From the NCBI GenBank assembly GCA_012798695.1, contig JAAZMR010000043.1, positions 1-41,250 of the forward strand: a DNA stretch of 41,250 nucleotides, read 5' to 3'. Under the pieces are notes generated by a model. It was not told where the DNA came from and made no database searches. It saw only the letters and a list, made by a program, of their open reading frames with translations. This document shows, piece by piece, positions 6,028-27,862 of the stretch (within the stretch, counting starts at the first letter, position 1; every line of letters starts with the position of its first letter). This DNA comes from Bacillota bacterium (GTDB lineage Bacteria > Bacillota > Limnochordia > DTU087). The translations under genes and the position numbers were made by a program.

Positions 6028-7041
6028 CTACTTGGTTATATAGCTAGAGCGATGGGTGAGAAAGTCGAGCAAGACAGCACTAATCAAGATGATGCCAGTA
6101 ATCAGGTCTTGCCAGTAGACCGACACATTGAGAAGGACTAGAGCATTATTTACTAGAGCTAAGAGAACCACACCGAGGACAGAGCCTAGGACTGTTCCCT
6201 CACCACCCCGCAGGCTGGCACCACCGATGACGGAGGCTGCTATAGCCCGCATTTCCGCTGACATGCCGGCATTGGGGGCGGCTACGGTGAATCTAGACAG
6301 AGTGAGTATGCCAGTGATCGATGCTAGTGTGCCCGTTAAGAAAAATACTCCGGTCTTGACTTTGGAGACATCGATTCCAGATAAGGCGGCAGCTTTCTCG
6401 TTGCTTCCCACATAGAAGACATGCCGCATAGCTGCGGAGCGGCGCAGGGCGAAATCCATGATTATTACAATGGCTAGATAAATCAATACCATGACCGGGA
6501 ATCCCAAAATCCTGCCTCCGCCTAAGAACTTGAAGCCTTTAGAAATGCCCGCTAAGGATAGGGGTGAACCCTTAGTCAACACATAGGAGCTCCCCCGGGC
6601 GATACTCATCATCCCCAGGGTGGTGATAAAAGGATTAAGGCCTACATGGCCGATAAAGTAGCCATTGACCAAACCACACAGCATGCCCACGGCCAAAGCT
6701 ATGACGGCTGCCAACCAGATATTGATACCGCTAAGGTATAGGGAGCCGGCGACAACCCCGCTTAGAGCCATGACTGAACCCACGGAGAGGTCAAAACCCC
6801 CCAGGACTAAAGCTACAGTCATGCCTACCGCGATGATACCATCTGCGGCTAGCCCAATAGCCGTAGTAGTTATATTTGCCCTCGTGAGAAAATGAGGGGT
6901 GAGGAGACTAAGAACCAGTGAAAAGCCGATGATGATAATAAACAGTGTGAATTCTCTAAAGCCAAGAGCCTTAGCCAAGAGGCTGCCGGGCTGGCTTTCT
7001 AGCCTTTGTTTCAAAGACTGTCCCCCTGAAGCTAGATTCAT
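6028..7041 (-). CDS. Sugar ABC transporter permease (RbsC-like)
   Basis: This is a 337-residue inner-membrane permease of the CUT2 class with about eight to ten helices. Recognisable landmarks are GMTVALVLGGFDLSVGSVMA near the first third and the cytoplasmic coupling region GGASLRGGEGTVLGSVLGV near the C-terminus, both typical of RbsC. The ATG follows AAAGGGGATG by five bases. It lies 18 bp downstream of the ATPase gene and 130 bp upstream of the binding-protein gene. It should form a homodimeric pore energised by the RbsA-like ATPase. Confidence 0.9.
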   Translation of the reverse strand: MNLASGGQSLKQRLESQPGSLLAKALGFREFTLFIIIIGFSLVLSLLTPHFLTRANITTTAIGLAADGIIAVGMTVALVLGGFDLSVGSVMALSGVVAGSLYLSGINIWLAAVIALAVGMLCGLVNGYFIGHVGLNPFITTLGMMSIARGSSYVLTKGSPLSLAGISKGFKFLGGGRILGFPVMVLIYLAIVIIMDFALRRSAAMRHVFYVGSNEKAAALSGIDVSKVKTGVFFLTGTLASITGILTLSRFTVAAPNAGMSAEMRAIAASVIGGASLRGGEGTVLGSVLGVVLLALVNNALVLLNVSVYWQDLITGIILISAVLLDFLTHRSSYITK

Positions 7042-7059: not shown

Positions 7060-8565
7060 TCAAGCACTCTTTTCTCTTTGTGTGGCTGCAAGCCGCATGA
7101 TATTATCTTCGGTAATATCACTTCCCATGAGCTCACCGGCTATTGACCCTTCATTCATGACTACCACTCGATCACACATTCCGATAATTTCCGGCAATTC
7201 CGAAGAAATCAGTACGATGCCGACACCTCGATTGGCCAGCTGTCTCATGAGGTAGTGGATCTCTGTTTTAGCTCCAACATCAATCCCGCGAGTGGGTTCG
7301 TCCATGAACAGCACCACGGGATCAATTGCCAGCCATTTAGCGACAATTACTTTTTGTTGGTTTCCCCCACTTAGATTGACGACTCTTTGCAGAAGGCTAG
7401 ATGTCTTGATGCGAAGCGCATTGATAAACTGCCTGGCCAGGTCTTTTTCTTTCTGTCGGTGGATGAGTTTATGCTTGGTAATGCTCTCTAGGGATGTGAC
7501 GGAGATATTTGGCTGGATGGCCATATTGAGAAACAGCCCTTCTTCCTTGCGATCTTCGGTCAGGTAGGCAAGCCTGGCCTCGATAGCATCATGGAAACTC
7601 TGGAAGTGGATTGCCTTTTGGCCCAGATAGATTTGGCCGGTATCGTAAGCGTCGATGCCACATACCGCTCTCGCCACTTCTGAGCGGCCTGCACCGACGA
7701 GACCGGCAAAACCAAGGATCTCTCCTTTCTGGACCGTAAAGGAAATGTCTCGAAAGATATTGCTCCTGGTCAAACCTTCTACTCGCAGGATTTTCTCCTG
7801 GCCCCGGCCCGTCTTTTCGGGATAGAATGTGCTAATACTCCGCCCTACCATGTTGCGGATAACTTCATCTTCATTGGTGTCTTTTGCTTCCAAGGTGGTG
7901 ACATAGCGCCCGTCTCGTAGGACAGTTATGCGGTCACAGATCCGGAAGACCTCCTTGAGCCGGTGGCTTATGTAAAGGATGCTGATACCTCTTTGCTTCA
8001 GATCCCCGACAATCGCAAATAGGTTTTCTGTCTCTAGTTCTGTTAGAGAGGAGGTGGGTTCATCGAGAATCAGAAGTCGGCAATCTAGGGACAGAGCTTT
8101 GATGATCTCTACGACTTGCTGGTTGGCAATACTCAGGTCTTGAACCTTAGCCATTGGATCTAGTTGTGCAGCAAACCTCTCTAGTAGTTTGGCTGTCTCT
8201 AGCCGGGCCTGCCCAAAATCCGCTAGCATCGACAAGTTACGGGGCATACGGCCCAAGAATACGTTCTCGGCTATGGATAGGTGAGGGCAGAGGGCGGTTT
8301 CTTGATGGACAAACCCAATCCCAAGTTCTTGCGCTTCCCGGGGGTTAGAGGGTGTATACTTCTTGCCATCGAAATGCATTTCTCCACCATCAGGCTGATG
8401 TACCCCGGAAACGATGTTTACTAGGGTAGATTTCCCGGCTCCATTTTCGCCCACTAGGGCATGAATTTCACCAGGCATTACTTCTAAGCTAACTTGATCG
8501 AGGGCTCTTACTCCAGGGAATATTTTCGTGATGTCGACCATGGAAAGTAACACTTCTTCAGGCAC
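7060..8565 (-). CDS. Sugar ABC transporter ATP-binding protein (RbsA-like, two ABC domains)
   Basis: The 501-residue ATPase has two ABC domains in tandem. The first has Walker A GENGAGKST and Walker B LLILDEPTSSL; the second has the altered Walker A GLVGAGRSE normal for RbsA/MglA, the signature LSGGNQQK and Walker B VLFMDEPTRGID. I set the start at the GTG at 8565, because GGGAGGT lies six bases upstream and it gives the family length of about 500; an ATG at 8673 would add 36 residues with no family resemblance. It is the first gene of a three-gene sugar importer with the order ATPase, permease, binding protein. No regulator is adjacent. Confidence 0.92.
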   Translation of the reverse strand: MPEEVLLSMVDITKIFPGVRALDQVSLEVMPGEIHALVGENGAGKSTLVNIVSGVHQPDGGEMHFDGKKYTPSNPREAQELGIGFVHQETALCPHLSIAENVFLGRMPRNLSMLADFGQARLETAKLLERFAAQLDPMAKVQDLSIANQQVVEIIKALSLDCRLLILDEPTSSLTELETENLFAIVGDLKQRGISILYISHRLKEVFRICDRITVLRDGRYVTTLEAKDTNEDEVIRNMVGRSISTFYPEKTGRGQEKILRVEGLTRSNIFRDISFTVQKGEILGFAGLVGAGRSEVARAVCGIDAYDTGQIYLGQKAIHFQSFHDAIEARLAYLTEDRKEEGLFLNMAIQPNISVTSLESITKHKLIHRQKEKDLARQFINALRIKTSSLLQRVVNLSGGNQQKVIVAKWLAIDPVVLFMDEPTRGIDVGAKTEIHYLMRQLANRGVGIVLISSELPEIIGMCDRVVVMNEGSIAGELMGSDITEDNIMRLAATQREKSA

Positions 8566-18582: not shown

Positions 18583-18610
18583 TTGACATAGAGGGAGTTT
18601 GTGATAGTAT
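18583..18610 (+). promoter_or_regulatory. Sigma-A-type promoter of the riboswitch/SulP/antiporter operon
   Basis: A perfect -35 box TTGACA (18583-18588) is followed after 16 bases by TAGTAT (18605-18610). An overlapping TATAAT at 18611-18616 is 22 bases away, which is too far for that -35. It lies just upstream of the c-di-AMP riboswitch. Confidence 0.6.
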
Positions 18611-18645
18611 TATAATTGTGGCTTGTTTAAGCACAAAATATACGT

Positions 18646-18760
18646 TATCTCCGAATTCCTCCATATAGGAAACGGGGGACCCCTTAAGTGGGGTGAATCC
18701 TGAATACCAGGTAGGGCAACTTGGGTGCCCGAACCCGTCAGCTAACCCCGTAGGAGTGGT
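18646..18760 (+). ncRNA. ydaO/yuaA-type cyclic di-AMP riboswitch
   Basis: The conserved blocks of this class appear in order: CCGAATTCC, GGAAACGGGGGACCCC, GGGGTGAATCC, GTAGGGCAACTTGGGTGCC and then CCGAACCCGTCAGCTAACCC with CGTAGGAG closing the outer helix with the 5' CTCC. The strings GGTGAATCC and CGAACCCGTCAGCTAA are strongly diagnostic. Riboswitches of this class bind c-di-AMP and usually turn expression off, mostly of potassium-uptake, osmolyte and wall genes. Here the RNA precedes a SulP transporter and a long Mrp-type operon. A possible expression platform follows: CCGGTG (18781-18786) can pair with CACCGG (18827-18832), but it lacks a clear T-run, so the mechanism is open. Confidence 0.92.
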
Positions 18761-18868
18761 CCAAGCGTTGTGTCTTAGCCCCGGTGGGACTTTGCCTGCG
18801 CTTTGTCGTCGTCGGCAGCGTCTTGCACCGGACTACTTGGTACCACTACTATAGACGGGGTGATTTTT

Positions 18869-20404
18869 TTGAAATCCTGGTGGCAGCGTGTCCGTGGTGA
18901 TGTAATCGGAGGGGCCACTGCAGCGGTTGTAGCTCTTCCTTTAGCTCTGGCCTTTGGTATTGCCAGTGGTGCAGGGGCTGTGGCCGGTTTGTATGCCTCA
19001 ATTTTCGGTGGCCTGACAGCAGCCATATTTGGCGGCTGTGGAGTACAGATCACCGGGCCTACCGGAGCGATGACAGCAGTATTGGTCAGTGTCGTCAGTC
19101 AGCACGGGGTAAGTGGCATGTTTCTGGCTGGCGCATTGGCCGGCCTCATGCAGGTAGTTTTGGGTCTTTTGCGGCTAGGCAAGTTCGTCAAGTATCTTCC
19201 TCAGCCAGTCATTGCCGGCTTTACCAATGGTGTCTCCATCCTCTTCTTCATGACGGCAATAGGTGATGCCTTAGCCACACCTTCCATCACAATCATTACT
19301 ACTCTGGTAATTATCTTGGCATTGCGCTATTTTAAACAAGTACCTGAGTCACTTTTTGGACTAGTTGCAGGTTTAGTTGTGAATGAGCTTTTCATACATA
19401 CTCCACATGTGGTGGGCGATCTGCCTTTTGGTATACCACGGCCAGTATTGGGGCTCATGCCTTTTGCCGATCTTGGCCAATTGATCATGCCTGCCATTAC
19501 GATTTGCCTCTTGGGCAGTATTTCTGCATTGCTGTCAGCCGAAGTTACTGATGGAATGATTGGCGCGCAGCATAATAGCAACCGGGAGCTGATCGGCCAA
19601 GGCCTGGGCAATCTGGTAGCTTGCTCTATCGGGGGAGTTCCCGTTTCCGGAGCTGTTGCCCGCTCTGGTGTCAATGTGCATAGTGGGGGCCGCACTCGTC
19701 TTTCCAGTATTCTGCATGCCATTTTCTTGTTGCTGATGGTCATAGTCTTAGGACCAGTAGCCAAGCGCATACCATTAGCTTCTTTGGCCGCTATCCTCAT
19801 GGTGGCTTCTGTTCGTACAGCTGATTGGAAGAGCCTCAAGTTAATGCCCCGGGCCCGCTGGAGTTATGGGGTGATCATGACTATTACGACCATATTGACG
19901 GTGGTCCGAGACTTGACCATTGCTGTAGCAGTCGGTGTAGTCTTGGCAGCTATTGTGGTAATGGTTGAACTGGCATCCTCACCACGGGGTAAAGAAGCAG
20001 CCCATGGTGAAGCCTCTGGGTCCCGTACTTTGCCAACCCATTCCGATGTTCAAGTATTGTCCCTAGATGGTCCTCTGTTTTTTGTGGGGATGGAGAACTT
20101 GCGGAATCAAATCAGGGATGTCTCCAGTAAGCCGATCCTGGTTCTGGATTTTTCGCGTGTACTGGCCATAGATGAGACTGGTGCCTTGGCACTAGCGGAT
20201 CTGGCAGAGAGGCTTCAGAAACAAGGCAAGAGCCTTTACATAGCTGGGCTGAAAAACAAGCCTTTGCGTATGTTGGTGAGAATGGGTGTGGTGGATGACT
20301 TAGGCCGGTCTCGAGTACACAAGGGCCTTAGCGGAGCTTTACGCAAAGCCGTTCGAGAGGCGGCGCAAATGACTGGGGCCAAACCGAGCCTAACTCAGGC
20401 CTAA
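18869..20404 (+). CDS. SulP-family anion transporter with STAS domain (bicarbonate/sulfate-type)
   Basis: This 511-residue protein has the SulP transport core, opening VIGGATAAVVALPLALAFGI and continuing GCGVQITGPTGAMTAVL. A cytoplasmic STAS domain (about residues 395-500; VLDFSRVLAIDETGALALADL) follows. The early GGATAAVVALPLALAFG and SGAGAVAGLY phrases resemble the Na-dependent bicarbonate transporter BicA more than classical sulfate permeases, but substrate cannot be assigned with confidence. The likely start is the TTG at 18869, with GGGGTGA six bases upstream; in-frame TTG 18803 and GTG 18860 lack a ribosome site. It follows the c-di-AMP riboswitch and precedes mrpE by 56 bp. Confidence 0.88.
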   Translation: MKSWWQRVRGDVIGGATAAVVALPLALAFGIASGAGAVAGLYASIFGGLTAAIFGGCGVQITGPTGAMTAVLVSVVSQHGVSGMFLAGALAGLMQVVLGLLRLGKFVKYLPQPVIAGFTNGVSILFFMTAIGDALATPSITIITTLVIILALRYFKQVPESLFGLVAGLVVNELFIHTPHVVGDLPFGIPRPVLGLMPFADLGQLIMPAITICLLGSISALLSAEVTDGMIGAQHNSNRELIGQGLGNLVACSIGGVPVSGAVARSGVNVHSGGRTRLSSILHAIFLLLMVIVLGPVAKRIPLASLAAILMVASVRTADWKSLKLMPRARWSYGVIMTITTILTVVRDLTIAVAVGVVLAAIVVMVELASSPRGKEAAHGEASGSRTLPTHSDVQVLSLDGPLFFVGMENLRNQIRDVSSKPILVLDFSRVLAIDETGALALADLAERLQKQGKSLYIAGLKNKPLRMLVRMGVVDDLGRSRVHKGLSGALRKAVREAAQMTGAKPSLTQA

Positions 20405-20460
20405 GTATCAAAACCCCTATGGGATAGAGATACTTCGATAGCAGACAAAGGGGGTTAACT

Positions 20461-21039
20461 ATGCGCAAGCGCTCTTTCGTTTTATTTGCCTTATTATTAG
20501 TGTTTTGGTTAGTAGTGTCCGCAGAGGTTGATAGCCAGCACCTTGTGGTCGGAGCTGTTCTGGCCGTGATGACTGTTTGGTTTTGGCAGAATCTTGGCCC
20601 AAGGCTGCCCCGTCTGCTCTCGGGTACAGAACTATTGCTGCTGGGCCACTGTCTTGTGACCCTAGTTCGCTTCATTATTCAATCCAATATCGCTGTGGCC
20701 AAAACCATCTTGTTATCCAGCCCACCGGTGGGGCCGGTGTTTGTTGTCATGCGGCCTCCGATAGAAAGCAACTGGGGAAGGGTGCTTTTGGCTAACTGTA
20801 TAACCATTACGCCGGGTACTGTCACCATCGATATTGATCCTGAAACAGGTCAATTCATTGTCCATGCGCTGACAGAAGAGGCTGCCCGTGGATTATTCGA
20901 TTGGCAGATTATCCATGAAGTCAGCAATCTGGAATCATGGAAACAGAGGAGGGCAAAACATGCTGTGGCTGCTAGTGGGTCTCATGGTGTTGATTCTCTT
21001 CGTCCTGTTGCGGGCGATTATCGGCCCGACAGTAATTGA
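20461..21039 (+). CDS. mrpE: Na+/H+ antiporter subunit E (MrpE/MnhE/MbhA-like)
   Basis: First gene of the antiporter cluster. The 192-residue product has two N-terminal hydrophobic helices and the MrpE landmarks SNIAVAKTIL and ANCITITPGTVTIDID followed by FIVHAL. Family members are about 160 residues; here a further 30-odd residues (from about ESWKQRRAK) have no family resemblance and lie over the start of mrpF in another frame (80-bp overlap). MrpE belongs to the membrane arm of Mrp antiporters and is equivalent to MbhA of membrane-bound hydrogenases. Confidence 0.88.
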   Translation: MRKRSFVLFALLLVFWLVVSAEVDSQHLVVGAVLAVMTVWFWQNLGPRLPRLLSGTELLLLGHCLVTLVRFIIQSNIAVAKTILLSSPPVGPVFVVMRPPIESNWGRVLLANCITITPGTVTIDIDPETGQFIVHALTEEAARGLFDWQIIHEVSNLESWKQRRAKHAVAASGSHGVDSLRPVAGDYRPDSN

Positions 21040-21271
21040 TCGCTTGCTTTCTATCAATGCCATCAGCAGCAAGGTGAGTATGATCATCTTATTGATGGCT
21101 TTCATGAGAGGCGATTATGGGTTCATAGATGTGGCCTTTGTCTTTGTGTTGTGTGGATTTGTGGGAGGGCTGTGGATATTGCGGGTACTGACTCCGGGTG
21201 ACTGGCAGCTGAGGTTGCCGGGGTTAGGTGGATTTGACGGGGATGGAGAGGAAGCGATTTCCCATGATTGA
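20960..21271 (+). CDS. mrpF: Na+/H+ antiporter subunit F (MrpF/MnhF/MbhB-like)
   Basis: A small membrane protein of 103 residues with three helices and the MrpF motif RAIIGPTVIDRLLSINAIS. The ATG at 20960 has GAGGAGGG seven bases upstream. An in-frame start at 20888 would lie deeper in mrpE and adds non-family sequence. The gene overlaps the mrpE tail by 80 bp and mrpG by 8 bp. The C-terminal twenty residues are rich in Gly and Asp. Confidence 0.87.
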   Translation: MLWLLVGLMVLILFVLLRAIIGPTVIDRLLSINAISSKVSMIILLMAFMRGDYGFIDVAFVFVLCGFVGGLWILRVLTPGDWQLRLPGLGGFDGDGEEAISHD

Positions 21272-21575
21272 GTTCTTAGCAAATGTATGTTTTGCCGGGT
21301 CGTTTTGTGCCTTTGCCCTGGGTACATTAGGGTTGTTTCGCTTGCCAGATCCCTATACCCGCCTGCATGGAGTGGGGATGGGGGATACCTTGGGTATGGG
21401 GTTGGCGGGGTTGGGACTTTTGCTGATCAGTCCTACTTGGGCTTTGCGGATCAAGCTGCTGGTCATTCTTGCCTTATTTTGGACAATTAACCCGACTATG
21501 ACCCATTTGGTAGCTAAAGCCGGCCTCATTCACGGGGTGCAGCCCGTGGAAGGCACGAGAGTAATCAAGGGGTGA
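21264..21575 (+). CDS. mrpG: Na+/H+ antiporter subunit G (MrpG/MnhG/MbhC-like)
   Basis: The product is 103 residues with three helices and the MrpG signature GLFRLPDPYTRLHGVGMGDTL in the first third, found in essentially all MrpG and MbhC proteins. I placed the start at 21264, because GAGAGGA is just upstream and family members begin with this helix; it overlaps the mrpF stop by 8 bp. Confidence 0.9.
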   Translation: MIEFLANVCFAGSFCAFALGTLGLFRLPDPYTRLHGVGMGDTLGMGLAGLGLLLISPTWALRIKLLVILALFWTINPTMTHLVAKAGLIHGVQPVEGTRVIKG

Positions 21576-21579
21576 GCAT

Positions 21580-21831
21580 ATGGGCTTTACAGCTGTAGAT
21601 TATGGGACGATGGTCATGCTATCGATTTTGATCGTGGCATCTTTGGCGATGTATTTTATCCGGGATCTACTTCATGCAGTTATCGTCTATGGCGCGTATA
21701 CTTTGATCATGGCTTTGATTTGGCTGCAGATGAACACCCCTGATATTGCTATTACTGAAGCTGCGGCGGGGATCGGTATGACAGTATTGATGATGGTCGT
21801 CATTTCTCGCACTAGTCGAAGGGAGGAATAG
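21580..21831 (+). CDS. mbhD: MbhD-like subunit (DUF4040; equivalent to part of the MrpA C-terminus)
   Basis: An 83-residue protein of three helices with the DUF4040 motif NTPDIAITEAAAGIGMTVLM. In standard Mrp antiporters this segment is part of the C-terminal domain of the large MrpA subunit; here, as in Mbh hydrogenases, it is a separate gene. It starts 4 bp after mrpG, and its stop shares a base with the next start. Confidence 0.85.
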   Translation: MGFTAVDYGTMVMLSILIVASLAMYFIRDLLHAVIVYGAYTLIMALIWLQMNTPDIAITEAAAGIGMTVLMMVVISRTSRREE

Positions 21832-22130
21832 TGTTGCGATTGCGGACTTTGTTTGTACTGGTGATTGCTCTGTTGGCTGCCTATGTAGTCCTGATCGCCG
21901 TAGCAGAGCTGCCTCCCTATGCAATGCCTGGAAATCCGGCCCACAATGAGGTGACCGAGCGTTATGTCAACGATGCCTTGGAGGAAACGGGAGTCCTCAA
22001 TATGGTGACCGCCATTGTCCTGGATTATCGGGCCTATGATACCATGTTTGAGACTATCGTGCTGTTTACCGCTGTCCTGGCGGTGATCATCACCCTGAAA
22101 ACGACCGAGGGAAAGGATGGCACCAAGTGA
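21831..22130 (+). CDS. mbhE: MbhE-like subunit (equivalent to the end of MrpA)
   Basis: A 99-residue protein with a helix at each end and a loop carrying the motif TGVLNMVTAIVLDYRAYDTM, which is conserved in MbhE and at the extreme C-terminus of MrpA. The start is GTG at 21831, overlapping the previous TAG by one base with GGGAGGA five bases upstream. It overlaps the next gene by 4 bp (GTGA). Together with the MbhD-like gene it represents the split-off end of MrpA. Confidence 0.83.
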   Translation: MLRLRTLFVLVIALLAAYVVLIAVAELPPYAMPGNPAHNEVTERYVNDALEETGVLNMVTAIVLDYRAYDTMFETIVLFTAVLAVIITLKTTEGKDGTK

Positions 22131-22552
22131 GAGATTTTGTCTTAAAAAGGGTAGCGGCATTGCTCTTGCCATTGATTCAGATGTATGGACTATATGTGAT
22201 TTTCCATGGACATGTCTCCCCGGGTGGTTCTTTTGCCGGGGGCATGGTGGTGGGGCTGGCATTTATCGCCTATGCTACCATCTATGGCCTGGAAAGGGGA
22301 CGAGAGAAACTACCGGAAACGGTGACTACCTTGACTGAAAGTCTCGGCACCCTTTGGTATGGGATCATGGGCCTGGTTGGCATCTGGAAGGGTGCTCCTT
22401 TCCTGGCCAACAAGCTGGCCGGGGTGAATTTGGGAGAACCGGGGGCACTGTCTTCTGGAGGGCTGATCTCTCTGATCGGTCTTGGTGTTGGGATCAGGGT
22501 GGCCAGCACCATGGTGACTTTGTTTTTTACCATGATGGAGGAAGAGTCGTGA
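22127..22552 (+). CDS. mrpB: Na+/H+ antiporter subunit B (MrpB/MnhB/MbhF-like)
   Basis: This 141-residue protein has four helices and the MrpB signature GLYVIFHGHVSPGGSFAGG at about 21-39. A GTG start overlaps the previous stop by 4 bp, and its own stop overlaps the next start by 4 bp. These tight overlaps run through the middle of the operon and favour balanced synthesis of the complex. Confidence 0.9.
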   Translation: MRDFVLKRVAALLLPLIQMYGLYVIFHGHVSPGGSFAGGMVVGLAFIAYATIYGLERGREKLPETVTTLTESLGTLWYGIMGLVGIWKGAPFLANKLAGVNLGEPGALSSGGLISLIGLGVGIRVASTMVTLFFTMMEEES

Positions 22553-22932
22553 AAATACTACTAGGCAAGTTAATGGTTAACTACCCGTACTTTGCGGCTA
22601 TGATCTTGTTTATTATCGGTGCGCTGACTGTGCTCACCCGTTCGAACCTATTCAAGAAGCTAATTGGCATCAATATCATGGAAAGCGCTATCTTCCTCAT
22701 GTTTATTGCCGCAGGCAATACCCGGGGCGGTGCGGTGCCGATCCTCGATCAGGCAGAACCCAACGCTGCCTATATTAACCCGCTGCCATCAGCCTTGATG
22801 TTGACTGGCATCGTGGTTAGTGTCAGTGTGACTGCCTTTGCTTTAGCATTGATTATCAGGTTATATCAATCTTATGGCACCACTGATGCTCAGCGGATTG
22901 CTGAGATGAGAAATGGGGTGGCCGAAAGATGA
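22549..22932 (+). CDS. mrpC: Na+/H+ antiporter subunit C (MrpC/MnhC/MbhG-like, NuoK-like)
   Basis: The product is 127 residues with three helices, homologous to NuoK of complex I. Family landmarks are KKLIGINIMESAIFLMFIA and the later PLPSALMLTGIVVSVSVTAF; the Glu in the MES motif matches the conserved helix-2 carboxylate. The GTG at 22549 overlaps the mrpB stop (GTGA), and the gene overlaps mrpD by 4 bp. Confidence 0.9.
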   Translation: MKILLGKLMVNYPYFAAMILFIIGALTVLTRSNLFKKLIGINIMESAIFLMFIAAGNTRGGAVPILDQAEPNAAYINPLPSALMLTGIVVSVSVTAFALALIIRLYQSYGTTDAQRIAEMRNGVAER

Positions 22933-24425
22933 CGGCAGCGATCATCACTAACTTACCGGCATTTGTTGTCATTGCCCCGCTTTTTGTCGCCTTTATCTTG
23001 CCGACTATCGCTCGGCGGATACGATTGGTGGAGAGTTTAGTCATTGTGATCGAAGCTCTCGGGCTTTTCGGGGCAGGATATCTAGCCTCACTCATTCTCA
23101 TGCAACAAGGCCTTCCCATCATCTATAACATGGGGGGCTGGCCGGCTCCGTGGGGTATAGAGCTCATAGCAGGCAGCTTAAGTGCCTTTTTCCTGTTGGT
23201 AGTGGCGGGTGTTAGTCTGCCGGTAGCCCTCTTTGCCGTAGGCAACATGTCCCATGAGGTGGGAGGACCGCAGCGCACCACTAGGTTTTATGTGCTCTAT
23301 CTGCTGCTCGGTGGCGCTCTGGCAGGTATGGCTATGACCAATGACCATTTCAATGTCTTTGTCTTGGTGGAAGTGGCGACCCTCAGTTGCTGTGGCTTGG
23401 TGAGTGCCCGGAACCATCCTCGAGCAGCCGAAGCTGCCTTCAACTATCTGATCTTGGCCACTTTAGGTTCTGATCTTATTCTTGGTGGGATCGGGTTCTT
23501 ATACATTGTTACGGGGCATCTGAATATGGAGTTTGCCTCCCAGCAGCTTACTGCGATTTGGCGGGATTATTCCCATGTGGTATGGATGGCGGCTAGTTTT
23601 CTTCTGGTAGGTTTTGGTGTAAAAGCGGCCCTCTTCCCGCTGCATATTTGGCTGCCTGATGCTCACTCCACAGCCCCATCACCGGCTAGCGCGATCTTAT
23701 CCGGGCTGGCAGTCAAGGGGTATCTAATTTGCCTGATGAAGGTGCTGTACAACGTATTTGGCGTTAGTTTGATGCAGGAGTTTGCCATCGATCGGATACT
23801 GGTACTTTTGGGTATGATTGCGATCATTGCCGGATCCATATTAGCCTTAGCTCAAGATGAGCTGAAGCGCCGGTTGGCTTTCTCTACTGTCGCACAGGTG
23901 GGGTACATCTTCCTGGGATTAGGCCTGATCAATACTAAGGGCCTGACAGGTACGCTATTTCACCTGGCCAGCCATGCTGTGATCAAGTCGAGTTTATTCT
24001 TGGCAGCGGGAGCGATGATCACCACTACAGGTAAACACCGGATTAGTGAAATGGCAGGTGTGGGCAGGAAAATGCCCATAACGATGGGAGTTTTCACTAT
24101 CGGCAGTTTGGGGTTGGTGGGTATACCGCTATTCTCCGGGTTTATTGGTAAGTGGTACCTGCTCTTCGGGAGTCTGGAAGCAGGAAGCTCCCTGGCTGCA
24201 GCAGTGATCATTGCGGGAAGTGTATTGTGTGCAGGTTATCTGTTTCCCGTGATTCGGATCGCCTATTTTGAGCCCGCGCCTGAGAGAGATTGGCAGGATC
24301 CCGGCTTATTACAGAGGATTGCCATGATTATGCTGGCGGCCGGTGTAGTGATCCTGGGCATAATCCCGGGGCCTTTTCTGGAGCTAGCCGGCGGAGCGGC
24401 GGTTGAGTTTTTGGTGAGCAAGTAG
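22929..24425 (+). CDS. mrpD: Na+/H+ antiporter subunit D (MrpD/MbhH-like, NuoM/N-like), copy 1
   Basis: A 498-residue antiporter-like subunit with about 14 helices. The two residues central to ion translocation are kept: Glu148 in FVLVEVATLS and Lys232 in GFGVKAALFPLHIWLPDAHS. It is in the position of MbhH/MrpD after subunit C and overlaps that gene by 4 bp (ATGA). It should form one of the proton or sodium channels of the complex. Confidence 0.9.
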   Translation: MTAAIITNLPAFVVIAPLFVAFILPTIARRIRLVESLVIVIEALGLFGAGYLASLILMQQGLPIIYNMGGWPAPWGIELIAGSLSAFFLLVVAGVSLPVALFAVGNMSHEVGGPQRTTRFYVLYLLLGGALAGMAMTNDHFNVFVLVEVATLSCCGLVSARNHPRAAEAAFNYLILATLGSDLILGGIGFLYIVTGHLNMEFASQQLTAIWRDYSHVVWMAASFLLVGFGVKAALFPLHIWLPDAHSTAPSPASAILSGLAVKGYLICLMKVLYNVFGVSLMQEFAIDRILVLLGMIAIIAGSILALAQDELKRRLAFSTVAQVGYIFLGLGLINTKGLTGTLFHLASHAVIKSSLFLAAGAMITTTGKHRISEMAGVGRKMPITMGVFTIGSLGLVGIPLFSGFIGKWYLLFGSLEAGSSLAAAVIIAGSVLCAGYLFPVIRIAYFEPAPERDWQDPGLLQRIAMIMLAAGVVILGIIPGPFLELAGGAAVEFLVSK

Positions 24426-24450
24426 GGGTGCGCGAGGAGGATTAGAGTAA

Positions 24451-25902
24451 ATGATGGATCTGGTTTTGGCTTTACTGAGCGGGGCAGTTGGAGGTTTGCT
24501 TGTGGCCCTCATGCCCCGGGCGAGCAGCCGCCTGCGCAATACAATCACACTCACTTTCTCTGTTATGGGCATGATCTTCAGCTGGCGAGTGGCTGGGGCG
24601 GTCTTGGCCGGGCAGACTGTACGGATAGCAGGTGAAATCGCGGGATTGGCGTGGAGCATACACCCGGACCCGCTCGGGGCGGTATTTGGGGTGATCGTCT
24701 CGACCCTCTGGCTCTTCGCTGCCATCTACTCCTTCGGCTATATGGCAGATGCGCAGAAACAGCGGACTTATTACACCTATTTTCTATTGGCTTTCAGTGT
24801 GACGTTGGGGGTGGCCTTTTCAGGTAACTTGTTGTCTCTTTATCTGTTCTATGAGCTGCTTACTCTTGTTACTTATCCCCTGGTGATCCATGAGCGTAAC
24901 ACGGAGGCCATGCAAGCAGGTGCCAAGTACATAATCTACAGCCTCTCTGGAGCAGGAGCTATCCTAATAGCTATAGTCATCACCTATGGTTGGGTAGGAA
25001 ACCTCGACTTTGCCGGTGGGGCCTTATTAGCTGATATGGGGCTGAGGCCGGGCTTAGGCTGGTTGTTGGCTCTATTTGTGGCTGGGTTTGGTGTAAAGGC
25101 TGCCATCATGCCACTACATCGCTGGCTGCCGGCGGCCATGGTAGCTCCCACTCCGGTAAGTGCTTTGTTACACGCTGTGGCAGTAGTCTATTCCGGTGTC
25201 TATGGGGTTTTGCGGGTAGTGTATTCCGTATTTGGGCATGAGTTGATGGGGCAGTTGCCTGTTAGTCATTTTCTACCCGTGGTAGCAGCCTTTACGATCT
25301 TGGTTGGGGTTACCATTGCCACTCAGCAGGATGTGCTGAAGCGGCGGTTGGCTTATCATACCATTAGTCAGCTCTCATATATCCTCCTGGGCGCTTTCAC
25401 CCTACATCCCTTGGGGTTAGCCGGGGCCATATTTCATATGATCAGTTACTCTACACTCAAGGTCACACTTTTCTTTGCTGCCGGGATTATCGCCAAACAG
25501 ACCGGTGAGGTAAATGTGAGCAAAATGAGTGGGGTAGGTTGGCAGTTGCCCTGGACCATGACGGCTTTTGGTGTTGCTAGCCTAGGAATGATCGGAATGC
25601 TGCCCCTGAATACCTTTTGGAGTAAGTACTACTTAATGAAGGGCAGTGTAGCTGGGGGCAAATGGCCATTAGCATTAGTGCTAATTGGCAGCGGCGTAAT
25701 TAACGCTTTCTGCTTCATTCCCACTGTAGTGACTGCTTTCACTGGGAAAAAGGGACAGCCTTCTCTGGAACAGGGGGGCGAGGTGGGACTCATGCTGGCC
25801 CCGACTTTGCTGCTGGCGGGGATTGCAGTTGTGATGGGTCTAGGGCCGGGATTGGTTTGGCCTGGAGTTGAAGCCGTTGTGAAATGGTTTTTCGTAAGGT
25901 AG
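24451..25902 (+). CDS. Antiporter-like membrane subunit (MrpD/NuoL-M-N family), copy 2
   Basis: A second antiporter-like subunit of 483 residues. It keeps the key Glu135 (LFYELLTL) and Lys216 (GFGVKAAIMPLHRWLP). It differs from copy 1 throughout, with AAMVAPTPVSALLHAVAVV in place of DAHSTAPSPASAILSG. CGCGAGGAGG precedes the ATG by 11 bases and the gap from copy 1 is 25 bp. It is about the size of MrpD and far shorter than MrpA, so it does not simply stand in for MrpA. Confidence 0.87.
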   Translation: MMDLVLALLSGAVGGLLVALMPRASSRLRNTITLTFSVMGMIFSWRVAGAVLAGQTVRIAGEIAGLAWSIHPDPLGAVFGVIVSTLWLFAAIYSFGYMADAQKQRTYYTYFLLAFSVTLGVAFSGNLLSLYLFYELLTLVTYPLVIHERNTEAMQAGAKYIIYSLSGAGAILIAIVITYGWVGNLDFAGGALLADMGLRPGLGWLLALFVAGFGVKAAIMPLHRWLPAAMVAPTPVSALLHAVAVVYSGVYGVLRVVYSVFGHELMGQLPVSHFLPVVAAFTILVGVTIATQQDVLKRRLAYHTISQLSYILLGAFTLHPLGLAGAIFHMISYSTLKVTLFFAAGIIAKQTGEVNVSKMSGVGWQLPWTMTAFGVASLGMIGMLPLNTFWSKYYLMKGSVAGGKWPLALVLIGSGVINAFCFIPTVVTAFTGKKGQPSLEQGGEVGLMLAPTLLLAGIAVVMGLGPGLVWPGVEAVVKWFFVR

Positions 25903-25915
25903 GAGGTTGAATCTG

Positions 25916-27862
25916 ATGCTGCTTATAGTCCTCCCCGCTATTCCACTTCTGGGAGCACTGGCCTTGCTGGGCATACGTGATCAGCGGATCAATATGCCGT
26001 TCATCATCAGCTCTATTGTTCTAGTTCTGGGGGGGTGGGGGCTCACTGGCGTGTTTAGGGGCACATCCTTGTCCTATGAGGTATCACTTTCCGGTCCCTT
26101 TGCCCCAAGTTTTCAAGCTGATCCCCTATCTGCCATCTTTGTGTTGCTAGCCACATTTCTTTGGTGGGTCGTATCCATATATGCACCAGAGTACATGCAG
26201 CACGAAGGTAGGGGACGAACTTTCGAGATCTGTACACTCTTGACCCAGTCAGCGGTTTTGGGAGTCTTTCTGGCCGGAGATCTTTTTACTCTGCTGCTTT
26301 TCTTTGAACTGATGACCGTAGCTTCGTACTTTTGGGTGATCCATCGATGGAATGCAGAAGCAATTCGGGCCGGGTATTTCTATCTTTTCTTTAGTATCGT
26401 GGGTGGGCTTTTTGTAGCCCTGGGGATTGTGCTGCTGGGAGCTAGTATTGATGGGCCGCTGGCCATTGGTGCCGGCCGCTTGGCTCCATTCAAGCCCGGA
26501 GATTTTGGATGGGGTTTAGCTCTACTGATAGCTGGCTTTGGCATCAAGGCCGGTATGGTACCTTTACACCTGTGGCTGCCTCATGCCCACTCGGTAGCTC
26601 CTACCCCCGCTAGTGCCCTCCTATCTGGGCTGGTGATCAAGGTAGGGGCCTATGGGCTGATTCGTACCGGGGAACTAGCCAGTTGGGGAGGGGGCTGGGA
26701 GAGTGTGGCGACGTGGTTGGGGCCTGCTCTGACTATCCTGGGCACCTGCACGATGCTGGTGGGGGTAGCTGCCGCTCTCCTGCAGAGTGATGCTAAGCGA
26801 CTCTTGGCCTATCATAGTGTAAGCCAGATGGGCTATATTATCTTGGGGTTAGGTGTCGGTCTGTACTTGGGGGCAGGGGGTGGCATGGGCCTTGTGGGGG
26901 CAATCTATCATATTGTCAACCATGCTCTCTTTAAGGCGGCTCTGTTCTTGGGTGTGGGAGTAATCTATGTTCACACTCAGGAGACCAATCTATATCACCT
27001 TGGTGGCTTGTGGCGTCGGTTCCCGGTCACTGCCCTACTCATGTTTTTGGCAGTCCTAGGCATTACGGGTGCACCTGGCCTCAATGGTTATGCCAGCAAG
27101 ACTTTGCTTCACCATGGAGTCAGTGCAGCGGCGGCAACGGGCTTGCCTTTGATGGTCTGGGCAGAGAGACTGTTTCTCTTGGTAGGGGTGGGTACAGCGG
27201 CTTCTTTCAGCAAACTGTATTATCTGATGTTTCTGGGTCGCCCTACCCAGATTGAAGTCTCAGGTGGCGAATCTCGCCTGTTCCAGATATCTATGACATC
27301 ACTGGCTGTAGTCATGGTAGGGATCGGGTTGAAACCGGAGCTCTTCCCGCAAGCCTGGGCGGTACCGGCAGCCGAGGCGTTGGGTATGCAGGCTGCTTCT
27401 AGAGCAATAGCTGGCATTTCCTTTTGGAATGCCAGTGATCTAATCGGTATGTTGATCACGTTGGGCCTAGGTGTGACCGTATGTTGGGCTGGGCTGAAAA
27501 GTGGAGTATTTCATTGGCAGCCCCCTCTATGGCTGACTTTGGAGGGTTTGGCGAAAATAGCCGGCCATAGTCTGTTAGCTGCTTTCCAGGTAGGGCAAGG
27601 GCTTTACCGTTCAATGGCTGCCTATTTTGCCAATATAGGCAGGACCATGGGGTCCCGCCTATATGCAGTCTGCCAGAAACTAGACCATTCAAGGGGAGGC
27701 ACCATCGGTGGGATTACCCTGTCGGGAATCAGTGCTGATGCCGCTCTCTTGATGGTGACCTTGGCTGTTTTGATCGTGTGCTATACCTATACTGATCTGG
27801 GCATACCCCGCCTGCGTTTACCCTTATCTGTACCCACATGGTTGAGAGTATTGGGTGGGTAG
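25916..27862 (+). CDS. Antiporter-like membrane subunit (MrpA N-terminal/NuoL-like), copy 3, long form
   Basis: The third antiporter-like subunit, 648 residues. It retains Glu131 (LFFELMTV) and Lys211 (GFGIKAGMVPLHLWLPHAHS). After the standard core it carries roughly 150 further residues with a long partly amphipathic segment (about 540-600) and a final helix, like the lateral helix and terminal helix of NuoL. The start is the ATG at 25916 with AGGAGG nine bases upstream; a TTG at 25907 is too close to that site. The gene ends the operon, and its last 39 bases overlap the 3' end of the convergent P-type ATPase gene. Confidence 0.87.
   Translation: MLLIVLPAIPLLGALALLGIRDQRINMPFIISSIVLVLGGWGLTGVFRGTSLSYEVSLSGPFAPSFQADPLSAIFVLLATFLWWVVSIYAPEYMQHEGRGRTFEICTLLTQSAVLGVFLAGDLFTLLLFFELMTVASYFWVIHRWNAEAIRAGYFYLFFSIVGGLFVALGIVLLGASIDGPLAIGAGRLAPFKPGDFGWGLALLIAGFGIKAGMVPLHLWLPHAHSVAPTPASALLSGLVIKVGAYGLIRTGELASWGGGWESVATWLGPALTILGTCTMLVGVAAALLQSDAKRLLAYHSVSQMGYIILGLGVGLYLGAGGGMGLVGAIYHIVNHALFKAALFLGVGVIYVHTQETNLYHLGGLWRRFPVTALLMFLAVLGITGAPGLNGYASKTLLHHGVSAAAATGLPLMVWAERLFLLVGVGTAASFSKLYYLMFLGRPTQIEVSGGESRLFQISMTSLAVVMVGIGLKPELFPQAWAVPAAEALGMQAASRAIAGISFWNASDLIGMLITLGLGVTVCWAGLKSGVFHWQPPLWLTLEGLAKIAGHSLLAAFQVGQGLYRSMAAYFANIGRTMGSRLYAVCQKLDHSRGGTIGGITLSGISADAALLMVTLAVLIVCYTYTDLGIPRLRLPLSVPTWLRVLGG

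Follow-up and report, generated by a model that had tools for sequence, protein, structure and literature searches.

Potassium and turgor are signaled in bacteria chiefly by cyclic di-AMP (c-di-AMP), and the riboswitches for this messenger have been described as switching uptake genes OFF. In which direction would such a riboswitch act at the head of genes for ion exchange? The question is raised by contig JAAZMR010000043.1 of a Bacillota bacterium (assembly GCA_012798695.1; 2.68 Mb in 130 contigs), of which we analyzed positions 1 to 41,250 (hereafter the window), where a c-di-AMP riboswitch precedes eleven genes, the first encoding an anion transporter of the SulP family and the other ten an antiporter of Mrp/Mbh type. 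A sequence-only reading had proposed this arrangement and was silent on the direction of control, which the architecture of the leader RNA suggests is ON rather than OFF. We favor, with moderate confidence, a model in which SulP and a cation/proton antiporter of ten Mrp/Mbh-type subunits are encoded on one transcript, and the riboswitch controls this transcript, most likely as an ON switch.

The aptamer and the hairpin that competes with it

An Rfam search of the window returned a single match, RF00379 (c-di-AMP, ydaO-type), which spans the full length of the model (1–134) and scored 93 bits against a gathering threshold of 38 (E 8.8e-21), which bears out the ydaO-type riboswitch of the sequence-only reading. 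The genome contains three copies of RF00379 (the window copy and two more), and because it also encodes a diadenylate cyclase (DAC) domain, c-di-AMP is plausibly made in the host; we infer that the window aptamer binds this ligand. The pseudoknot P7 is present, with CUUGG at 18720–18724 pairing with CCAAG at 18761–18765. Its loop and tail strands co-vary across leaders (CUUGG:CCAAG, CUUGAG:CUCAAG, CUUUUUC:GAAAGAG and CCUCUG:CAGAGG), and judging from these pairs P7 is real across leaders. The features of the leader are as follows.

18583..18610, + strand: candidate sigma-70 promoter, TTGACA-N16-TAGTAT, matching the consensus at 10/12 positions, with TG before the -10 element
18639..18772, + strand: c-di-AMP riboswitch aptamer, the full-length RF00379 match
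18720..18724, + strand: 5' strand of P7, CUUGG, in the aptamer loop, complementary to 18761–18765
18746..18765, + strand: aptamer 3' strands in the Rfam structure, CCCCGU (P3, 18746–18751), A, GGAG (P1), UGGU and CCAAG (P7, 18761–18765); also the 5' arm of hairpin L, paired with 18836–18861 in the minimum free energy (MFE) and centroid folds
18763..18803, + strand: proximal terminator hairpin T (AAGCG...CGCUU), degraded in the window (tail UGUCGUCG), from folds and leader comparison
18836..18861, + strand: 3' arm of hairpin L, CUUGGUACCACUACUAUAGACGGGGU (26 nucleotides [nt], ending inside the Shine-Dalgarno [SD] sequence), which repeats the aptamer partner strands CUUGG and ACGGGG and forms a duplex with 18746–18765
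18857..18870, + strand: SD sequence GGGGUGA (18857–18863) and U7 run (18864–18870), which close hairpin L

The promoter is the best of 11 candidates, of which 10.3 are expected by chance, and is therefore listed as a candidate only.

The central feature of the expression platform is hairpin L, an OFF-state structure that re-uses the aptamer 3' strands of P3, P1 and P7 by pairing CCCCGUAGGAGUGGUCCAAG with CUUGGUACCAC...ACGGGGU. In fold models, from which the energies of P7 and ligand are excluded throughout, L forms in both the MFE and centroid structures of the ligand-free leader. Its duplex (18836–18861 with 18746–18765) has an energy of -26.7 kcal/mol, which is reached by 0/5797 other overlapping 70-mers of the window, and the 129-nt segment containing L has a folding energy of -53.4 kcal/mol (z -3.3). 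Within the ligand-free ensemble, the SD is paired to the aptamer 3' strands with a probability of 0.81. The leader folds freely at -87.6 kcal/mol; imposing the aptamer state by forcing P1 and P3 raises this to -77.9 kcal/mol (a cost of 9.7), and reserving the P7 strands as well raises it to -70.6 kcal/mol (a cost of 17). According to these models, hairpin L and the ligand-bound aptamer are mutually exclusive. Because L holds the SD and then runs into GA-UUUUUUU, it looks like a terminator and an SD lock in one. A possible promoter within the 3' arm of L was rejected by eye: its hexamers and spacing are poor and lack conservation.

We propose that, when c-di-AMP is absent, the 3' strands of P3, P1 and P7 would refold with the segment before the start codon into the long hairpin L, which would hide the SD and end in a U-run, such that transcription or translation would stop. 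When c-di-AMP is high, as under high K+ or turgor, P1, P3 and P7 would be stabilized, L would be prevented from forming and the operon would be on.

Predicted direction of control in the window and its relatives

An ON switch is predicted because the OFF-state hairpin and terminators are built from aptamer 3' strands. White et al. associated an aptamer that overlaps its terminator with ON control and one that lies apart with OFF control, and OFF control was demonstrated for the Dehalobacter c-di-AMP aptamer, whose terminator is separate (PMC9337991). Hairpins L and T of the window both use aptamer 3' strands, which differs from the OFF-type layout of a separate terminator with an antiterminator. 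The logic is drawn from Na+-I (DUF1646) riboswitches, which also head cation transporter genes and for which overlap of aptamer and terminator is proven to give ON control (PMC9337991); they have another aptamer and ligand and are cited for logic only. The B. subtilis ydaO/kimA and ktrAB riboswitches and the Dehalobacter ablA tandem riboswitch share with the window an RF00379 aptamer with P1, a P3-type helix and P7. However, these are OFF switches, with the ablA terminator apart from the aptamer (PMC9337991), whereas the window hairpin uses aptamer strands and the genes behind it encode an anion transporter and an antiporter. The nlpC c-di-AMP riboswitch of C. glutamicum probably acts on translation (PMC9960051), which resembles SD sequestration by L, but it switches a wall peptidase gene OFF.

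We compared leaders from a riboswitch survey set of 41 genomes and from 35 close SulP relatives (L089–L123), which were obtained by alignment of riboswitch-linked SulPs against a genome collection and lie on contigs nearly all labelled as Bacillota or Clostridia metagenome-assembled genomes. The automatic terminator finder was wrong for a few leaders (e.g., L006 and L010, with terminators apart), which were read by eye. Most SulP leaders contain the nearer terminator T (CCAAGCG...CGCUUUUUU) after P7, and the base of T shares AAG with P7. The terminators of L090 and L098 end in CCUACGA-U6/7, which pairs with the aptamer strand UCGUAGG (P3/P1), and in these two leaders the sequence makes the overlap of terminator and aptamer unambiguous. 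A few algorithm errors aside, the distance of the terminator 5' arm from the P1 end is bimodal, at -9 to +8 nt, where P7 or P3/P1 strands are shared, versus at least 14 nt. The U-run of T is intact in most relatives and degraded in the window, L089 and L091, which is where L is strongest.

Where the T base lies at +5 to +8, most leaders pair T with a probability of about 0.9 without ligand; the value is lower in a few SulP leaders (L102, L119 and L121). No antiterminator is evident, because T already reaches this level without ligand in most of these leaders, and ligand could then only weaken T. These values bear on the conventional alternative, by which c-di-AMP would favor termination at T or another hairpin and lower SulP-Mrp expression, as for KimA and KtrAB. 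Such control is in keeping with the OFF behavior of the c-di-AMP riboswitches tested to date and with the U-run of T in most relatives; in addition, a shortened T could coexist with P7, and some longer terminators (T') are disfavored in ligand-free folds, as an OFF design needs. However, T forms without ligand in most +5 to +8 leaders, T, T' and L all share strands with the ligand-bound aptamer, and the window has lost the U-run of T and gained that of L. We consider OFF control unlikely, though it deserves serious weight.

Several observations nevertheless weigh against the ON switch that we favor. Published c-di-AMP riboswitches are described as OFF switches (PMC9960051, PMC5575661). Forcing the aptamer increases SD accessibility in the window only modestly, from 0.04 to 0.19. 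Hairpin L is strong only in one subclade, the SDs of L090, L099, L104, L114 and L120 lack pairing to the aptamer, and an arm-swap test across 30 leaders gave no significant signal for L pairing (P = 0.16). The P7-shortened terminator retains -10 to -14 kcal/mol in the relatives tried and might still terminate, and several T' terminators (L092, L094, L100 and L123) have low ligand-free probability.

Because the swap test was null and several variants are unpaired, we claim L for the subclade of the window only. Local compensations within L are suggestive (L110 AGUAAU:AUUACU, L028 GUGA:UCAC and L121 UCCACC:GGUGGA). Global covariation of L was dropped, as most arms are identical and the variants L090, L093 and L100 lose pairing, and SD accessibility was set aside as a general readout, as its mean across leaders rose only slightly, from 0.20 to 0.30, when the aptamer was forced. 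Given the null swap test and the failure of SD-aptamer pairing in several relatives, the models suggest that the OFF state forms by different mechanisms in different subclades.

Operon conservation and the genes behind each platform type

The riboswitch lies upstream of SulP in 33/35 close relatives, of which 29 were found by motif and four by Rfam (L105, L115, L117 and L118); L111 is without a riboswitch, and L116 has too little upstream sequence. Behind SulP, the genes mnhE-F-G-mbhD... follow in conserved order, to contig limits, in 27/35. A survey of genes behind such riboswitches for SulP and mrp had been proposed in the sequence-only reading, and the arrangement extends well beyond the window. 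In the 41-genome set, 15 riboswitches lie upstream of SulP, including some broken or truncated SulP genes. On this comparison, chance juxtaposition of riboswitch, SulP and antiporter genes is excluded. At L177 (G005) and L035/L123 (G010), SulP is broken or shortened while the leader and antiporter genes are kept, which may reflect either a dispensable SulP or contig errors.

The set behind the window riboswitch comprises 11 genes, SulP and then ten Mrp/Mbh-type antiporter genes at 20461–27862.

18869..20404, + strand: SulP/SLC26 anion transporter with STAS domain, TTG start (PF00916 [Sulfate_transp], 198 bits; PF01740 [STAS], 51 bits; PDB relatives SLC26Dg 5da0 and BicA 6ki1)
20461..21039, + strand: mnhE (PF01899)
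20960..21271, + strand: mnhF (PF04066)
21264..21575, + strand: mnhG (PF03334)
21580..21831, + strand: MbhD-like subunit (DUF4040; PF13244)
21831..22130, + strand: MbhE-like subunit (PF20501)
22127..22552, + strand: mnhB (PF04039)
22549..22932, + strand: mnhC (PF00420; NCBIfam subunit C)
22929..24425, + strand: antiporter subunit D, first copy (Proton_antipo_M, PF00361)
24451..25902, + strand: antiporter subunit D, second copy (Proton_antipo_M, PF00361; nearest PDB chain MBH subunit H, 6cfw)
25907..27862, + strand: antiporter subunit D/HyfB-like, third copy (Proton_antipo_M, PF00361; nearest PDB chain 6cfw_H)

SulP likely starts at TTG 18869, after GGGGUGA, rather than at 18803. The gap between SulP and mnhE is 56 nt, and elsewhere the genes overlap or are separated by at most 25 nt, which agrees with the closely packed gene order first described. 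The antiporter set is followed by convergent genes on the other strand, which encode a P-type ATPase and an ArsR regulator. Terminator-like sites occur in the region at about the chance level (15 found versus 11.7 expected), and the SulP-mnhE gap holds no promoter-like site among the listed candidates. There is no convincing internal break between riboswitch and antiporter genes, and we infer one transcript for SulP and the antiporter. The gap does contain an inverted repeat without a U-run (AAGTATC...GATACTT, 20404–20440), which may be an RNA processing or stability element. That repeat and the gap itself would suit a riboswitch that governs mainly SulP, with the antiporter genes under their own control and the linkage incidental, as would the relatives with riboswitch and SulP without adjacent Mrp (L109, L115 and L117–L121). 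However, SulP stands directly before mnhE in the same gene order at 27 loci, the gap lacks a listed promoter, and a canonical Mrp operon of another family has its own c-di-AMP riboswitch, which together make SulP-only control very improbable. That operon, in G018, encodes an MnhA-B fusion, C, D, E, F and G without SulP, and its riboswitch scored 102 bits (L195, G018:C1:1-9400 reverse complement, motif near 611); by its sequence, it is an independent link of c-di-AMP riboswitches to Mrp.

Across the 41 genomes, riboswitches with overlapping terminators head SulP(-Mrp), six CPA2 Na+/H+ exchangers, the canonical Mrp operon, an F1Fo ATP synthase operon and veg. Riboswitches with separate or no terminators head ABC transporter genes for peptides and betaine, as well as one KtrA-like gene (KtrA assigned by reading). 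When 299 genomes from the phylum were scanned for CAGCTAACCYCRNAGGAGNNNNCCAAG, the motif occurred 25 times, in 19 genomes. Of these occurrences, 10 lie before SulP, 7 before CPA2 exchangers, 3 near veg and one before a DUF1538-like membrane protein (assigned by reading); no recognized importer was found downstream of the 25, some of which are without assignment. Both sets of counts are uncorrected for shared descent, and the overlapping layout may have been passed on as one unit.

We tentatively propose, at somewhat short of an even chance, that these Bacillota possess a second functional class of c-di-AMP riboswitch, in which a terminator or SD-hiding hairpin built from the P7, P1 and P3 strands of the aptamer would make an ON switch for cation/proton machines as well as ATP synthase; importers in these lineages would be under ordinary OFF members. 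If so, one messenger would stop salt and osmolyte uptake and start salt export, and this opposite sign on exchangers would place both halves of ion balance under its control at the RNA level. The link between c-di-AMP riboswitches and Mrp appears undescribed in the open-access library searched (subscription journals were outside the scope), where the two were found together only in work on Na+ riboswitches.

Several other arrangements were observed in the survey. At L196 (G025:C250:7800-16500, motif near 664), a riboswitch with an aptamer-overlapping terminator precedes an apparently whole F1Fo ATP synthase operon (atpI, a, b/delta, alpha, gamma, beta and epsilon, by reading). CPA2 Na+/H+ exchanger genes lie behind riboswitches at L038, L042, L047, L061, L066, L070 and L172–L175, where AAG at the base of the terminator also belongs to the P7 strand, and veg (biofilm stimulator Veg) lies close downstream at L021, L026, L043, L046 and L060. 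L054 (G019:C10) has two c-di-AMP riboswitches on the same strand about 1.5 kb apart (6139–6329 and 7641–7805), each with its own downstream gene. Octopine/nopaline-dehydrogenase-like genes, possibly for opine-type osmolyte synthesis, lie behind the riboswitches of L009, L030 and L071 (Pfam on L009).

Identity of the SulP transporter and the antiporter

The sequence-only reading described the SulP protein as BicA-like and suggested Na+-coupled bicarbonate uptake, with sodium recycled by the antiporter. The nearest solved structures are SLC26Dg (5da0) and BicA (6ki1, E 1.8e-53), with which the window SulP shares the transport domain, STAS and anion-site residues, and in cyanobacteria BicA functions alongside Na+/H+ antiporters, Mrp among them (PMC13249358). 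BicA binds Na+ through Asp258, Thr262, Gly300 and Thr302 and bicarbonate through Thr69 and Ala301 (PMC13249358). The bicarbonate residues are kept (Thr65 and Ala262); however, the Na+ site aligns with Ser219, Ser223, Gly261 and Val263, such that two of four ligands are changed. The coupling acid (Asp258 in BicA, Glu in SLC26Dg) is Ser219 in every Mrp-linked SulP examined and Glu in four riboswitch-linked SulPs without Mrp. Moreover, the NCBIfam BicA equivalog model scored 268 bits, far under its cut-off of 880, so the likeness to BicA holds only as loose homology. Because Asp258 is replaced by Ser in all Mrp-linked copies examined, we doubt Na+/bicarbonate symport and consider sodium recycling around it improbable; the window SulP is probably not a BicA-like symporter and more likely transports anions by exchange or without coupling. 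What stands of the original interpretation is a widely conserved, riboswitch-headed SulP and Mrp-type operon. An invariant Arg265 has the spacing to the GG(K/R)T motif that Arg399 has in prestin. Arg404 of SLC26A6 has been proposed to bind bicarbonate or oxalate (PMC10328499).

The Mrp (CPA3) subunits B, C, D, E, F and G are all present by Pfam and NCBIfam. In place of a full-length MrpA, with DUF4040 and an MbhE-like C-terminal part, MbhD and MbhE are separate genes and two extra D-type subunits replace the A core. The set thus resembles both Mrp (Mnh/Sha) and the Mrp-like arm of MBH in its subunits E, F, G, B, C and D, its split MbhD/MbhE and its second and third large subunits, which are nearest to 6cfw_H, but differs in having three large antiporter-like subunits without full-length MrpA. 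No hydrogenase or sulfide reductase modules were found among the operon genes.

The products of the operon would combine cation/H+ exchange with anion movement without Na+ coupling, for example Cl-/bicarbonate exchange, and the two exchanges in parallel could shed salt at little pH cost or adjust pH. Salt export of this kind would complement the repression of uptake genes by c-di-AMP. Salt and pH balance would also place in a physiological context the uncoupled-looking SulP and an Mrp variant of three large subunits about which little is understood. The antiporter (22929–27862), with its three Proton_antipo_M subunits and the split MbhD/MbhE, is more similar to the membrane arm of MBH than to canonical Mrp, and hydrogenase genes are absent from its vicinity.

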